Positions 3,157 through 16,251 of a DNA stretch of 21,859 nt are shown in pieces (the stretch's first letter is position 1; each line of letters starts with the position of its first letter). The notes under the pieces were generated by a model. The model had not been told where the DNA came from, searched no databases, and worked only from the letters and a program-made list of their open reading frames with translations. The DNA lies in the IMG/VR virus record IMGVR_UViG_3300033233_000173, positions 1-21,859 of that record. The stretch is one strand, 5' to 3'. The translations under genes were made by a program, and so were the position numbers. The DNA comes from a virus.

Positions 3157-4004
3157 TTAAAAGACTGGACACAATCTCAGATGGGATTAACGTGCGTAAA
3201 TGATCCACTCTGAAGCGATCGTTTACAAGGAAATAGTTTTTCGTCGTTATCCGGGGTCCCGGGTAAAGGCTCACCGGAATTACTACCGGCCGCATTCCGG
3301 GCACGTCAGCAATGGAGTGCAGGCGCTCCACCAAGAGATCTGGAAGGACCATCACGGGGCGATCCCCAAGGGAAAAGTGGTTCATCACCAAGACGGGAAC
3401 CCACTCAACAACCAACCCAATAACTTGATCCTTATCACTCAGCGCGAACATCTGGCGGTCCACCGCGCACGAGGCGACTGGGACCCGAGCAGCAGGAAGC
3501 AACTCCGGCATTTGAAGAGCATTCGCGGTCTTACTAAAGCGTGGCACAAGTCGACAGCTGGCTGGAAGTGGCACAGCCAAAACTCCAAGCAGTTGTGGAA
3601 GAAGAAAGAGGTGATGACGAAAGCCTGTGTTGAATGTCAAAAGACCTTCCGTACGAAAGTCGTTTCGGCTCGCTTTTGTTCAGCGCGATGTCAAGGTCGC
3701 GCCCGACGTAAGAACCCGGACCAATACGTGGAGAAAACGTGCGAGGTCTGCGGCGAGAAATTCAGCATCTTCAAATGCGAACTGAGCCGGTCTGACCGAC
3801 CCGTGCAGCGTACTTGTTCGCGCGTTTGTGGGTGGACGTTGCGGTCGATAAATTAGAGTTGATCGTCGGAGGCCGATCCGTCACGGTCAGCTTTCGTCAG
3901 TCGTTCTTTGCACAGTCTCCGGGCTGAGTGGAACGTATGTGGGGTAGAAAACAAGCGAAGGAAGAGTGAACTCCGCCCGGAGACGAAAGACTTTGACTCC
4001 CCAC
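3094..4004 (+). ncRNA. Candidate group I intron core around the HNH gene (ends not determined)
   Basis: Several pairings fit group I order. A P3-like pair is TTGTGT (3094-3099) with ACACAA (3169-3174). A P7-like pair is AGACTG (3162-3167) with CAGTCT (3913-3918). The 3' strand of P3 lies two bases after the 5' strand of P7, as in group I cores, and AAGACTGGAC resembles the conserved R element. A perfect hairpin TCCTAAG-TGT-CTTAGGA (3119-3135) could be a P5-like arm. The HNH reading frame would sit in the P8 loop. Downstream, GTCTCCGGG (3915-3923) pairs with CCCGGAGAC (3976-3984), in competition with part of P7. Against it: no convincing second terL exon is seen before the terminator, and terL reads through to its own stop. 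Splice sites are not assigned. Confidence 0.35.
3200..3856 (+). CDS. HNH homing endonuclease
   Basis: The 218-aa protein has an HNH_3-type nuclease core: HQEIWKDHHG (44-53), then VHHQDGNPLNNQPNNL (61-76), with H62/H63, D65 and Asn residues as the expected catalytic and metal ligands, and H84/H88 after it. The C-terminal half carries two zinc-ribbon clusters (C143, C146, C160, C164, and C181, C184, C206, C210), typical DNA-recognition parts of intron-encoded and free-standing HNH enzymes. These nick or cut a target in an allele lacking the element and so spread it. Codons are AT-richer than in flanking phage genes, a sign of separate origin. Its place at the 3' end of terL fits a selfish insertion at a conserved gene. 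Confidence 0.85.
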   Translation: MIHSEAIVYKEIVFRRYPGSRVKAHRNYYRPHSGHVSNGVQALHQEIWKDHHGAIPKGKVVHHQDGNPLNNQPNNLILITQREHLAVHRARGDWDPSSRKQLRHLKSIRGLTKAWHKSTAGWKWHSQNSKQLWKKKEVMTKACVECQKTFRTKVVSARFCSARCQGRARRKNPDQYVEKTCEVCGEKFSIFKCELSRSDRPVQRTCSRVCGWTLRSIN

Positions 4005-4145: not shown

Positions 4146-4871
4146 TCAGGCGTGGCCCTTGGTGGTCTCCTGCGCCCCGGGCTGATGCAGCTTCAGCATG
4201 TCCATCATCCCCATGTGGCCGACCTGCACTTTCGGATCGACGTAGATCGTCTCGCCGTGCTCGCGAGCGCGGAGGGAGAACATGAAATCCTCCGGCATCC
4301 GCCGCCGATAGCGCCGGCCCGGCACCCACTCACCCTCGACCGGACCCATGGCGAAGACCTCGTGGCCCGTCTCGCCGCGGTAGGCGAAGTCCTCGATCTC
4401 GTATTGCCATTCTGGATGCAGGGCGATCATCTCCTCTACGAGCCCGAGGTCGATGCAGGTGAAGCCGGTGGCCACCTCGAAGACTTCCCAGAGCCCGGGC
4501 TTCTTCGCCGACTCCTTGGCCCAGCCGCCATAGCTCCAGCGCAGTTCCATACCCTTGAGCGGGTAGAGGCCTGCGATATATCGCACCGCGGGGTCCTTCA
4601 TCCACGAGAGCAGCTGGCCGAGGTGCTCCGGGCCGAAGACCTCGTCAGCGTCGATGAAGAGGATCTTCGAGGCGTCGGTCTTCGTGAGCGCATGGTGCAG
4701 CATCAGGTTCCGCGCATGGGCGATGTCGCAGCCGCCACCGGGTATGAGTTGGAAGCGCCAGTCCTCGATTTTCGAGAGAGCAACGCGGATTAGGGCCATG
4801 CTGGTTTCCCAGCGGGTGGTGCCGTCACGCAGGCCCACGCCTATGACGACTGATTTGGGATCTCGGGTCAT
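4146..4871 (-). CDS. Glycosyltransferase-like protein (GT-A fold), antisense cargo gene
   Basis: The 241-aa protein resembles small GT-A (family 2/Anp1-like) glycosyltransferases found in phages. It starts with a strand-turn segment SVVIGVGLRDG, has a conserved-looking DIAHARN (49-55), and a DxD-type motif in ILFIDADE (70-77; D74, D76) that would bind metal and nucleotide sugar. A later EDFMFSLRA and VGHMG fit acceptor-side elements of the family. It could decorate virion proteins or modify host surface or phage DNA sugars; the substrate is unknown. It is the only clearly supported gene on the minus strand and splits the packaging genes from the portal, the usual look of a moron with its own transcription. 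Its start lies 48 bp from the portal ATG. No Shine-Dalgarno sequence is seen. Confidence 0.7.
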   Translation of the reverse strand: MTRDPKSVVIGVGLRDGTTRWETSMALIRVALSKIEDWRFQLIPGGGCDIAHARNLMLHHALTKTDASKILFIDADEVFGPEHLGQLLSWMKDPAVRYIAGLYPLKGMELRWSYGGWAKESAKKPGLWEVFEVATGFTCIDLGLVEEMIALHPEWQYEIEDFAYRGETGHEVFAMGPVEGEWVPGRRYRRRMPEDFMFSLRAREHGETIYVDPKVQVGHMGMMDMLKLHQPGAQETTKGHA

Positions 4872-12670: not shown

Positions 12671-13828
12671 ATGTCATTCATCGACATCACCAACTTCGTG
12701 ACGGTCAGTGTGTCGTCACCGCCCGCCGGCTTTGCGGACTATCAGGTCAACAACCTTGCGATCTTCACCAAGGAGACGCCGGTCAACGTCGCCATCACCG
12801 CGGCCAACCCCGGCATCTACGTCAGCCCGGCCGACGTGCTCGCCGACTGGGGCGCGGGCAGCGAAGTTTATTCGCAAGCGCTCCTCGTGTTCTCGCAGAG
12901 CCCGAACATCCTCGATGGCGGCGGATCGCTCGTCATCTCGCCCATGCAGTCGGGCGATCTGTTGAAGGACGTCATCCCGGTGGCCATCACCAAAGTCTTC
13001 TTCGGCGGCGCCATCTGGGCCGGCTACAGTCCGAACGACGCCGAGATTCTCGCCGCCGGCACGGCCTGTGAAGCCCTGCGTGTGAAGCTGTTCGTGGCGA
13101 CCTTCGCCACGGCGGACATGACCACCACGACCGGCATCCTCTGGAAGCTGGTCAACGCGAATCTGAAGCACTCCCGCTGCCTGCTCTATTTGGGCGCGAC
13201 ACCCACCGCGCTGGCGGCTCGCGCCATGGCGGCGGCCTACGCCGGCCGGGCGCTCTCCGTGGACTTCACGGGTCCGGCCACGACATCCACCATGCACGGC
13301 AAGACGCTGGCGGGCATCGTGGCGGACACCGCCATCACCCAGACCATTCTCAACACCGCCCAGACAGTCGGCGTGGACCTCTACCCGAATGTGGGTGGTG
13401 GTGCCCAATACGCCGGCAAGGTCTTCTGCTCGGGCACGAACGACTTCTTCGACAACGTCTACAACCTCGACTGGTTGGTCTTCGCTCTTCAGGTGGCCGG
13501 GTTCAACGCCCTCACCACGGTGGGCTCGAAGATTCCCCAGACCGAGCCCGGCATGTCGGTGCTCAAGGGCGCCTACCTCTCGGTCCTCCAGCAAGCGGTC
13601 ACCAACAACTTCGTCGCCCCGGGCGTGTGGAACTCGCCGGAACTGTTCGGCATCCCGCAGGACCTCAAGCGCAACATCCTCGACCTCGGCTACTACCTCT
13701 ACAGTACGCCGGTCAACGCCCAGACGCAGGCCCAGCGTGTGGCCCGGCAAGCGCCGCTCGTGCGCATTGCGGTGAAGTACGCCGGCGCCATCCACAGCTC
13801 ATCGGTTATCGTAAGCGTAAACCAGTAA
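12671..13828 (+). CDS. Tail sheath protein (DUF3383-like)
   Basis: The 385-aa protein is likely the contractile sheath subunit. The N-terminus IDITNFVTVSVSSPPAG followed by FADYQVNNLAIFT is characteristic of DUF3383. The middle shows HSRCLLYLGATPTALAARAM, the family's central domain with the 'AmaAayaGralsvdf' pattern. The later NLDWLVFALQVAGFNAL and the C-terminal PLVRIAVKYAGAIHSSSVIV also match. DUF3383 sheaths occur in Bcep781-like, Pam3-like and related myoviruses. The length is near the lower family range, in line with a small machine. It fixes the phage as a myovirus. It is followed by the tube gene after a 19-bp A/C/T-rich gap. Confidence 0.88.
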   Translation: MSFIDITNFVTVSVSSPPAGFADYQVNNLAIFTKETPVNVAITAANPGIYVSPADVLADWGAGSEVYSQALLVFSQSPNILDGGGSLVISPMQSGDLLKDVIPVAITKVFFGGAIWAGYSPNDAEILAAGTACEALRVKLFVATFATADMTTTTGILWKLVNANLKHSRCLLYLGATPTALAARAMAAAYAGRALSVDFTGPATTSTMHGKTLAGIVADTAITQTILNTAQTVGVDLYPNVGGGAQYAGKVFCSGTNDFFDNVYNLDWLVFALQVAGFNALTTVGSKIPQTEPGMSVLKGAYLSVLQQAVTNNFVAPGVWNSPELFGIPQDLKRNILDLGYYLYSTPVNAQTQAQRVARQAPLVRIAVKYAGAIHSSSVIVSVNQ

Positions 13829-13847: not shown

Positions 13848-14303
13848 ATGCCCGCAGTTTCTCTCACTGGCAACGACACTCTGGTTATCGGCGGACTCAC
13901 GATCACCGACACCTCGGACGGCGACTGGTTCGTCCTGACCTACGACAACGACCTCGCCAATCTGAAGCGCGGTAAGAACGGCAACGCCATCTTCGCGGAG
14001 AACGCAATGGGGCCGGTCGGGGTCGCCACGCTCCGACTGATCCGCGGCTCGCAGGACGACAAAGCCTTGAACTCGCTGCTCCAGCAGCAGATCCAGGACT
14101 TCGCCTCTTTCGTCCTGCTCAACGGCCAGTTCGTCAAGCGAGTCGGTGACGGCCAAGGCAACATCACCGACGACGTCGGCCAGATGTCGGGAGGCATCTT
14201 CAAGCGCAACGTGGACGCGAAGTCCAACGCCGAAGGTGACACCGAGCAGAGCGTCGCACTTTATCGCTTCGAGTTTGCGGACGTGCAACGCGGCCTGTTC
14301 TGA
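13848..14303 (+). CDS. Tail tube protein
   Basis: The 151-aa protein lies straight after the sheath. It begins VSLTGNDTLVIGGLTITDTSDGDWFVL and continues KRGKNGNAIFAENAMGPVG, ATLRLIRGSQDDKALNSLL, MSGGIFKRNVDAKSNAEGD and YRFEFADVQRGLF. The order of two-layer beta strands, a middle helix (SLLQQQIQDFASF) and the final 'y.f.fadv.rgl' matches the DUF3277/T4 gp19-like tube fold. Tube hexamers stack to the length fixed by the tape measure and carry DNA. It ends just before the structured non-coding segment at 14308-14389. No Shine-Dalgarno is seen before its ATG (leader ...tttactacc). Confidence 0.85.
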   Translation: MPAVSLTGNDTLVIGGLTITDTSDGDWFVLTYDNDLANLKRGKNGNAIFAENAMGPVGVATLRLIRGSQDDKALNSLLQQQIQDFASFVLLNGQFVKRVGDGQGNITDDVGQMSGGIFKRNVDAKSNAEGDTEQSVALYRFEFADVQRGLF

Positions 14304-14414: not shown

Positions 14415-14843
14415 ATGAAAGACCCTATCCTACTCAAAAGCGGGGCCAGTCTCACCGTGAGCTTGGCTTCTTTCGCAGACGGCACCCGGCTTCTCCGGGT
14501 CGTGGCGCGCGAACTGGCGGCAGTCAACTTCGACATGGACCTCGTCAACTTCGAGGAGCTGTCGGGCAAGGACGTGAACGTGCTCAAAAGCGCCATCTGC
14601 CAGCTGGTGCAGTCCGAGGCCATCGAGGGAGTCCTGAAGGACTGCATGAAGAAGTGCCTCTACAACGGCACTCGAATTGTATTCCCGGATACGTTCGAGG
14701 CGGAAGACGCCCGGCAGGATTATCTGCCCGTGGTGTGGGAGGTGATGAAAGCCAATCTCCGCCCTTTTTTCGCGGGCCTCAGCTTGTCGTCCTCAACAAG
14801 CAAAGAGCCCAGCACGTCCGACCCGAAGTCCGAATCACCATGA
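14415..14843 (+). CDS. Tail assembly chaperone, short form (G-like)
   Basis: The 142-aa protein lies between tube and tape measure, the fixed position of the tail assembly chaperone. It has an N-terminal strand region (KDPILLKSGASLTVSLAS) and helices including LKSAICQLVQSEAI and DCMKKCLYNGTRI, like other G-type chaperones. It binds the tape measure and recruits tube subunits and is normally absent from the virion. The C-terminal 24 residues after the slippery site are Ser/Pro-rich and look disordered. A -1 shift near 14768 gives the long form (see the separate entry). The A/C-rich leader ...gaaacaaactgcac lacks a Shine-Dalgarno sequence. Confidence 0.75.
   Translation: MKDPILLKSGASLTVSLASFADGTRLLRVVARELAAVNFDMDLVNFEELSGKDVNVLKSAICQLVQSEAIEGVLKDCMKKCLYNGTRIVFPDTFEAEDARQDYLPVVWEVMKANLRPFFAGLSLSSSTSKEPSTSDPKSESP
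14762..14811 (+). other. Programmed -1 frameshift signal in the chaperone gene
   Basis: The zero-frame codons CGC CCT TTT TTC (14760-14771) contain two overlapping slippery heptamers, C CCT TTT and T TTT TTC. The -1 frame is open from before this point to 15013. A hairpin candidate follows: GGGC (14774-14777) with GCCC (14807-14810), stacked via a bulge on GCTTGT (14782-14787) with ACAAGC (14796-14801), starting about 5 bases past the first heptamer. A shift at 14768 would yield 118 zero-frame residues plus 81 from the -1 frame, about 199 aa. This is the lambda G/GT arrangement that many tailed phages conserve. Confidence 0.7.
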
Positions 14844-15013
14844 GCAACACCACCCTGATGGCTTTGCGGCTGGCCCGCGAAGGCTTCTGGGGTGGCCAAC
14901 CCGAACGCATCCAACAAGCACCACTCGATCTCGTCCTCGACGCCTGGGAGTTCGTGAACTTCCAAGCTGAATACGAAGAGACGACGATCGAACTCAACAA
15001 ACCCAAAACATGA
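14840..15013 (+). CDS. Tail assembly chaperone, T-like C-terminal part
   Basis: This short frame (57 aa from ATG 14840) starts in an ATGA overlap with the short chaperone and ends in an ATGA overlap with the tape measure. It contains REGFWGGQPERIQQAPLDL and VLDAWEFVNFQAEYEE, the small helical 'G......p...vl......f..e....' domain that phages commonly encode as the T part of a GT fusion. It is in the -1 frame relative to the upstream gene, which has a slippery site, so it may be made mainly as the C-terminal half of a ~199-aa fusion (14415-15013), with independent initiation as an alternative. Confidence 0.65.
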   Translation: MSNTTLMALRLAREGFWGGQPERIQQAPLDLVLDAWEFVNFQAEYEETTIELNKPKT

Positions 15014-16251
15014 AAGTTGCCGAAATCTACGCGGACCTGGGCTTCAAGGTGCAGGGCGCGGACGACCTCAAGGCTTTCGACACGATGCTCAAGAGCATTG
15101 CGCAGTCGGCGCGCAACGCAGCTTTGGCGCTGAGGATCTTGGCGCGCACGCCGGGCTTCAGCCAGATCACTGGCCGGTCAGGCGGGGGAGGGGGCGGCGG
15201 CGGGGGTGGGGGTGGCGGCAACCGGCGGCCGGTTCTCGGGCCGAACCAGTCCATCGTCCCGGGCAACCCCAATTTCATCGGGCCTCTGGCTCCGCAGACG
15301 GTGGCGCCCACGCAGGGCAACACCGCGGTGAATCAAGGTCTCAAGAGTCTGACCACCTTCGTCAAGCAGCTGGTCGGAATCGGGTCCCTCGCCTACGCGC
15401 TGAAGGCGCTCATCGGCGGGTTCTCGCGCATGGTCAAAACGTCCATGGAGGCGAGCTTCGGCCTCGACAAGTTCACGCGGCAGACCGGGGTGACCCTCGC
15501 CGAGATGAAGCGTTGGGAGCAAATCGCAGCTGCCAACGACGTGACCGCCGAGGAGATCATGGAGAGCCTGAAATCTCTTCAGCAGAATGCACAGCAGATC
15601 GCCATGGGCAATGGCGGCACCAACGCGAACCGCTGGGGTATCGACCCGCTGGTGGCGTTGACGAATCCAGGCGCCATCTTCAAACGCTTCCAGGAGGTGA
15701 CCCAGGGCATGACGCAGGCGCAGGCAATGGCGGTCGCCCAGAACGCCGGCATCTCCGAACGAGTGGCCCAGATGCTTCTGCGCGAGCGGGAGCACCCGAC
15801 CACGGTACGCGAGGGCCTCGCGCAGACGGAGGACCAGTTGAAGGCCGTGCGGGACCTCGGGGCGGCATGGAACACCCTGAAGGTCACGCTCTCATCTCTG
15901 GCGGACAAGATCACAGCCGACGTGGCGCCCGCCTTGAACAGTGTGTTGAGTTTCTTCACGCGCATCGCAGCCGCTCTCACCATCAGCAATCAACTGCGCC
16001 AGTTGGTCACGGGCAGTGCCGGGTCGGGTTTTGGGGGAGGCATGATGCCTGCGACGCTAGCGCTCCCACTCCTGAAGGGTTTGATCAACCAAGCCCCCTC
16101 GACAACGAAAGTAGACAACCAGATCAACGTGAGCATCGACGGCGCTGCGCGGCCACAGGACACCGCCAAGGCGACCGCTTCTGCGATTGATCGAATGCTC
16201 TCGGACGCTTACTATGGGCGTCAGGCACCCTATTTCGTCGGCGCCAACTAA
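15010..16251 (+). CDS. Tail tape measure protein (short)
   Basis: The 413-aa protein sets tail length. The N-terminus (VAEIYADLGFKVQGADDLKA) is a typical tape-measure start that pairs with chaperone. A run of 13 glycines at residues 58-70 (15181-15219) follows. Helical stretches come next: KQLVGIGSLAYALKALIGG (partly hydrophobic), GLDKFTRQTGVTLAEMKRWE, and QTEDQLKAVRDLGAAWNTLK, a TMP-like segment, with a C-terminus containing INVSIDGAARPQDTAKATA that is typical of TMP ends. At roughly 1.5 angstrom per residue (family rule), a tail near 60 nm is expected, short for a myovirus. It begins at ATGA in the previous stop. Confidence 0.8.
   Translation: MKVAEIYADLGFKVQGADDLKAFDTMLKSIAQSARNAALALRILARTPGFSQITGRSGGGGGGGGGGGGGNRRPVLGPNQSIVPGNPNFIGPLAPQTVAPTQGNTAVNQGLKSLTTFVKQLVGIGSLAYALKALIGGFSRMVKTSMEASFGLDKFTRQTGVTLAEMKRWEQIAAANDVTAEEIMESLKSLQQNAQQIAMGNGGTNANRWGIDPLVALTNPGAIFKRFQEVTQGMTQAQAMAVAQNAGISERVAQMLLREREHPTTVREGLAQTEDQLKAVRDLGAAWNTLKVTLSSLADKITADVAPALNSVLSFFTRIAAALTISNQLRQLVTGSAGSGFGGGMMPATLALPLLKGLINQAPSTTKVDNQINVSIDGAARPQDTAKATASAIDRMLSDAYYGRQAPYFVGAN

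Follow-up and report, generated by a model that had tools for sequence, protein, structure and literature searches.

Tail assembly chaperone frameshifts reportedly form a conserved set (Xu, Hendrix and Duda 2004), and the slip site of phage P2 is T TTT TTG. In phage lambda, the short G ORF lies upstream of the tape measure gene and has near its 3' end a slippery site, where a -1 shift gives T as a fusion (G/GT); in P2 and related phages, the frameshift efficiency is 2- to 3-fold higher (PMC5009743). In the Vandenendeviridae and Andersonviridae (e.g. Pseudomonas phage Adele), the -1 frame is conserved with the poly-T slip motif GTTTTT, and the C-terminal ORF is mostly annotated as a separate hypothetical gene (PMC12846349). 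The window described here (the whole stretch of DNA that was analysed) is a 21,859-base virus fragment from IMG/VR (record IMGVR_UViG_3300033233_000173). Terminase, portal, sheath, tube-like protein, the G/T locus, tape measure and baseplate J were assigned in it with Pfam and PHROG and, by this gene content, the fragment is from a contractile-tailed phage. Judged from sequence comparison, positions 14415-15013 very probably constitute a G/GT tail assembly chaperone locus with a -1 programmed frameshift; the locus is of the lambda G/GT type, a well-known kind of frameshift. The genes concerned are as follows:

12671-13828, plus strand: tail sheath (contractile tail); phrog_205 tail sheath (4e-61), PF11863 DUF3383 (2e-35)
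13848-14303, plus strand: tail tube-like structural protein; phrog_280 virion structural protein (2.3e-9)
14415-14843, plus strand: G ORF, putative tail assembly chaperone in the zero frame, 142 aa, ending at TGA 14841-14843
14771-15013, plus strand: T domain in the -1 frame, 80 aa past the slip; stop 15011-15013
15010-16251, plus strand: tape measure protein, 413 aa; PHROG tape-measure families (best 2.8e-7)

The gene order is sheath-tube-G-T-tape measure, with the tape measure ATG overlapping the T stop (ATGA) at 15010. The product of 13848-14303, which is kept between the sheath and chaperone genes in relatives, is presumably the tube, given the gene order; a G-like gene between the tube and tape measure genes, one of the marks of the G/GT type, is present. 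The G ORF matched PF21822 (Phage_TAC_15) with 36.9 bits (E 6.1e-9), above the curated gathering cut-off of 22 bits, which bears out the chaperone identity claimed in the initial annotation; two PHROG chaperone families, including phrog_1613 (5.4e-5), were matched weakly. The helical domain of G was modelled by AlphaFold with a pLDDT of 87. Profile searches of a solved-structure library with G or T gave no match, nor did Foldseek at E <= 0.001 (G and T against the PDB, T against viral models).

The window shares with lambda the position of G upstream of the tape measure gene, the 3' slip site and the putative -1 T fusion; its heptamers (C CCT TTT and T TTT TTC) and its contractile tail are different, and family scans revealed no relation in sequence to G or T of lambda. 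The P2-like E/E+E' system is similar as a myovirus chaperone with a -1 shift, whereas G of the window matches PF21822 and no P2 E family match was found. Adele and the window are both contractile-tailed with a conserved -1 frame, whereas in the family of the window the slip motif is CCT TTY, with codon-level evidence for it (see below). The best named match to the G protein was from Bdellovibrio phage phi1422 (E 2e-9), a member of the dwarf myovirus group (PMC3391216); in the IMG/VR copy of phi1422 (L023), C CCT TTT and T in the -1 frame are both present. Unlike in the fusion reading given here, T of phi1422 is annotated separately as phi1422_0058, and the word 'frameshift' is absent from the text of the phi1422 paper (PMC3391216). 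The gene phi1422_0058 (L027 3393-3557, JQ177062) comes after phi1422_0057 and corresponds to the T domain in the -1 frame; its annotation makes it a hypothetical protein of its own, starting at a TTG within the domain.

The zero-frame codons around the putative slip site are CGC (14760), CCT (14763), TTT (14766), TTC (14769) and GCG (14772), and they contain two slippery sequences:

14762-14768, plus strand: slippery heptamer C CCT TTT; N CCT TTN in relatives
14765-14771, plus strand: second, overlapping heptamer T TTT TTC; CCCTTTTTTC in most of the closest relatives

Both heptamers are in the zero frame, 75-78 nt upstream of the G stop, and the coordinates and frame given for them in the initial annotation are exact. 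The downstream frame, as also proposed there, is the -1 frame and runs without interruption up to its stop codon (15011-15013), so that 14415-14771 joined to T encodes a fusion of 119 + 80 = 199 aa (about 199 aa had been proposed). The openness of this frame by itself is weak evidence, because in this GC-rich DNA it is open from 14240 onwards (257 codons); the evidential weight for it comes from the relatives. The pair of heptamers is more than chance would give: in the main genes of the window, CCT is the rarest proline codon (5/126) and TTT the rarer phenylalanine codon (7/120), and when G was recoded synonymously, two overlapping in-frame heptamers arose in 0.125% of cases, against 2.5% when the order of its codons was shuffled. 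The junction (...PFFRGPQL...) is identical from either heptamer; thus proteomics could prove the shift without telling the heptamers apart, and these are distinguishable by codon changes only.

We propose that most ribosomes would read G and terminate at 14843, and that a minority would move back by one base on CCT TTT TTC, where the Pro- and Phe-tRNAs (on C CCT TTT) or two Phe-tRNAs (on T TTT TTC) may re-pair. The shifted ribosomes would read on in the -1 frame as far as 15013, yielding a GT fusion of 199 aa. If lambda is a guide, G would coat the tape measure protein, the T part of GT would recruit tube subunits, and the ratio of G to GT would be set by the efficiency of slipping. Here we infer that slippage occurs, and likewise its frequency, the heptamer used, the stimulatory role of the hairpin (see below) and the chaperone action.

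A search of the IMG/VR viral contigs with the G protein alone gave no relatives; they were recovered from IMG/VR by queries with the sheath, tube, major capsid and baseplate J proteins. The first set contained 63 sequences and the enlarged set 98 distinct G genes, of which the closest had 55-64% identity. The T domain was in the -1 frame in 63/63 sequences of the first set and, wherever T was found, in 96/96 of the enlarged set. Where the site was located, every relative but one had N CCT TTN at the slip codon, the next codon being TTT, TTC or TTA; the exception (L012) had GAT TTT TTC. The base before CCT was C in 48/63, and the heptamer started with CCC in 73/96, so that about a quarter of the relatives had another base there; among these, L006, L012 and L022 carried T TTT TTC and the others just N CCT TTY, which retains the U_UUY tetramer. 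Measurements in E. coli have shown such tetramers, and also all-pyrimidine heptamers, to be prone to shifting (PMC4066793). Across the family as sampled, a heptamer of the strict X XXY YYZ form is accordingly usual, not obligatory. Pantoea phage LIET2 and Erwinia phage phiEt88 have the same tandem heptamer in their homologous genes. Loss of the heptamer or interruption of the -1 frame in relatives, which the initial annotation had named as evidence against a frameshift, was looked for in about 100 relatives, and the frameshift reading stands: some hundred related phage sequences share the slip site and the second frame, and by this comparison the signal looks real.

Codon statistics were calculated for the 63-sequence set with the expectation taken from the codon use of each locus itself. 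The slip proline was CCT in 62/62 (19.5 expected; z 12, although z-scores ignore shared ancestry and overstate independence), and in 47/47 (14.2 expected) when 48 representatives below 60% identity were used. The phenylalanine codon two positions past the slip proline was TTC in 19/19. Past the slip proline, synonymous constraint was strong from codon +4 onwards (AGC 27/29, CTC 39/60), the pattern expected where a second frame starts being read at the slip. To judge from this codon use, selection at the nucleotide level is demonstrated for the slip codons as well as for the dual-frame stretch that follows.

The T segment (80 aa, modelled with a 60-sequence alignment) gave an AlphaFold pLDDT of 92.7, with strands at residues 5-7 and 20-22 and a helical bundle. 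Val7 was kept in 54/60 and Pro18 in 59/60 of the T domains, and both residues lie between the slip and the following sole internal ATG:

14840-14842, plus strand: ATG overlapping the TGA of G (14841-14843); a T fragment of 57 aa might start here in addition

T is thus predicted to fold as a domain that begins upstream of this ATG. The family phrog_16793 (function unknown) matched 54/60 of the aligned T domains (best 1.2e-22), and T of the window itself gave no phrog_16793 match at E 0.01; PHROG 16793 is best read, from these matches, as a frameshift-encoded chaperone C-terminus. By the comparative evidence, the recoding site is confirmed as predicted and a role can be suggested for a PHROG so far without one; a mistake that recurs in annotations, T listed as a gene of its own (phi1422 is an example), is also corrected. 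The approximately 100 diverse sites, in which the slip codon, Shine-Dalgarno (SD)-like and hairpin elements vary naturally, should be useful for testing what frameshifting in bacteria needs.

The ATG at 14840 had been proposed in the initial annotation as a second route to T. The ATGA overlap is present, but the route is not equivalent, since the ATG is T residue 24 and lies past Pro18, Val7 and both predicted strands. It was considered as an oddity of the window until near relatives showed an ATG at the same T codon, and that idea was dropped: the codon is ATG in 20/22 near sequences, mostly 5-11 nt past the start of the G stop, and overlap with the stop is found in the window alone among the sequences compared. 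If there were no frameshift, G and T would be separate proteins, and T would be made from this ATG by termination-reinitiation at ATGA. The recurrence of the ATG, its overlap with the G stop and the similar ATGA/GTGA coupling at the T-tape measure junction are in favour of such a separate T, but its product would be without the near-invariant proline, Val7 and both strands, no SD was seen before the ATG, 26/63 relatives have no ATG, GTG or TTG between the slip and the T core (52/63 have no ATG), and the selection for CCT and the dual-frame constraint upstream of the ATG would be left unexplained; we regard this explanation as highly improbable. Because its product drops the near-invariant Pro and the confidently predicted beta-hairpin, and 26/63 lack a start, initiation at ATG 14840 is no substitute for the frameshift and GT.

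The two routes may also coexist, with GT made by the frameshift and a short T fragment from ATG 14840 in the clade of the window. The ATG at T codon 24, conserved near the G stop in this clade, makes an extra T fragment possible; however, the methionine may persist for protein reasons, its position is fixed relative to T whereas that of the G stop varies, and the fragment would be without part of the predicted fold and has no ribosome-binding site that we could see, so that coexistence is unlikely, if conceivable. As for the mechanism of the shift, transcriptional slippage, a parallel mechanism according to a review (PMC5009743), might make the fusion on the run of six T in CCCTTTTTTC. Against this, many relatives keep the frame with 3-4 T (CCCTTTC G, CCCTTTT A; CCCTTTTA), which makes polymerase slippage unlikely for the family as a whole, and selection acts on the CCT codon, not on a long run; we give it very little credence. 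Ribosomal -1 slippage at CCT TTT TTC is thus the explanation adopted here.

Two elements near the slip site were considered as stimulators of this ribosomal slippage:

14738-14745, plus strand: Shine-Dalgarno-like GGAGGTGA, 16-19 nt upstream of the heptamers
14772-14813, plus strand: bulged hairpin, possible stimulator; -19.3 kcal/mol, z about -4.5

The hairpin had been noted in the initial annotation; it is real by folding, with modest support in the nearest relatives, but is not conserved family-wide. No 44-nt segment in 14415-15013 has a stronger z-score than that of the hairpin (14772-14813). The hairpin begins 0-2 nt past T TTT TTC and 3-5 nt past C CCT TTT, i.e. closer than the usual stimulator spacing of 5-8 nt (PMC4066793). 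As a family-wide stimulator it was rejected (mean z -0.53 over 63 loci, like the neighbouring segments). In 15 near relatives, the hairpin segment had the lowest mean z among the segments (-1.72), and the inner helix CUUGU/ACAAG was kept in most of 14 near relatives, with the outer stem lost; pair counts were modestly above the controls, and no consensus fold was found among the near relatives with RNAalifold. The conservation of the inner helix is moderate evidence only, since part of it follows from the conserved LVV.DK peptide. In L188-L191, the partner of the 5' arm CUUGUCG is a 3' arm offset by several nt relative to the window, which suggests that the helix partners have shifted within this clade.

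In the 14 codons before the slip, the strongest biases over the family were K at -5 (AAG 28/39) and E at -8 (GAG 27/39), both SD-like. AAGGAG/AAGGA-type sequences 6-17 nt upstream, within codons -9 to -4, were present in 31/63 relatives, about twice the synonymous expectation (15.9; 31 was reached in 0/300 simulations), mostly in SD-using genomes. The SD-like words of the window end 18-21 nt away when measured as in the published work, outside the published stimulatory range of 6-17 nt, and an SD-like stimulator in the window is unsupported, 0.43 of synonymous recodings doing as well. At the structural gene starts of the window (e.g. 9036, 12671, 13848, 14415, 15010, 19396), no SD was seen and the anti-SD energies were near 0, unlike in many relatives, which have an SD before gene starts. 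These starts suggest a host with little SD use, and a function of GGAGGTGA in the window genome is doubtful. A wider model, in which slippage would occur family-wide on the U_UUY core after a fixed CCU with a selected upstream SD-like stimulator, and G, GT and a reinitiated free T would all be made in the clade, appears distinctly unlikely.

Three further observations were made in the window. The tape measure protein has a poly-glycine tract (G-rich DNA, 15182-15214) close to its N-terminus, which may be an assembly or slippage-prone site. An HNH-type homing-endonuclease-like ORF (3200-3856, plus strand; HHQDGNPLNN... motif recognised by eye) lies between the terminase and portal genes, and a glycosyltransferase-like ORF on the minus strand (4146-4871; FIDADEVFGPEHL..., likewise by eye) lies within the plus-strand head module.
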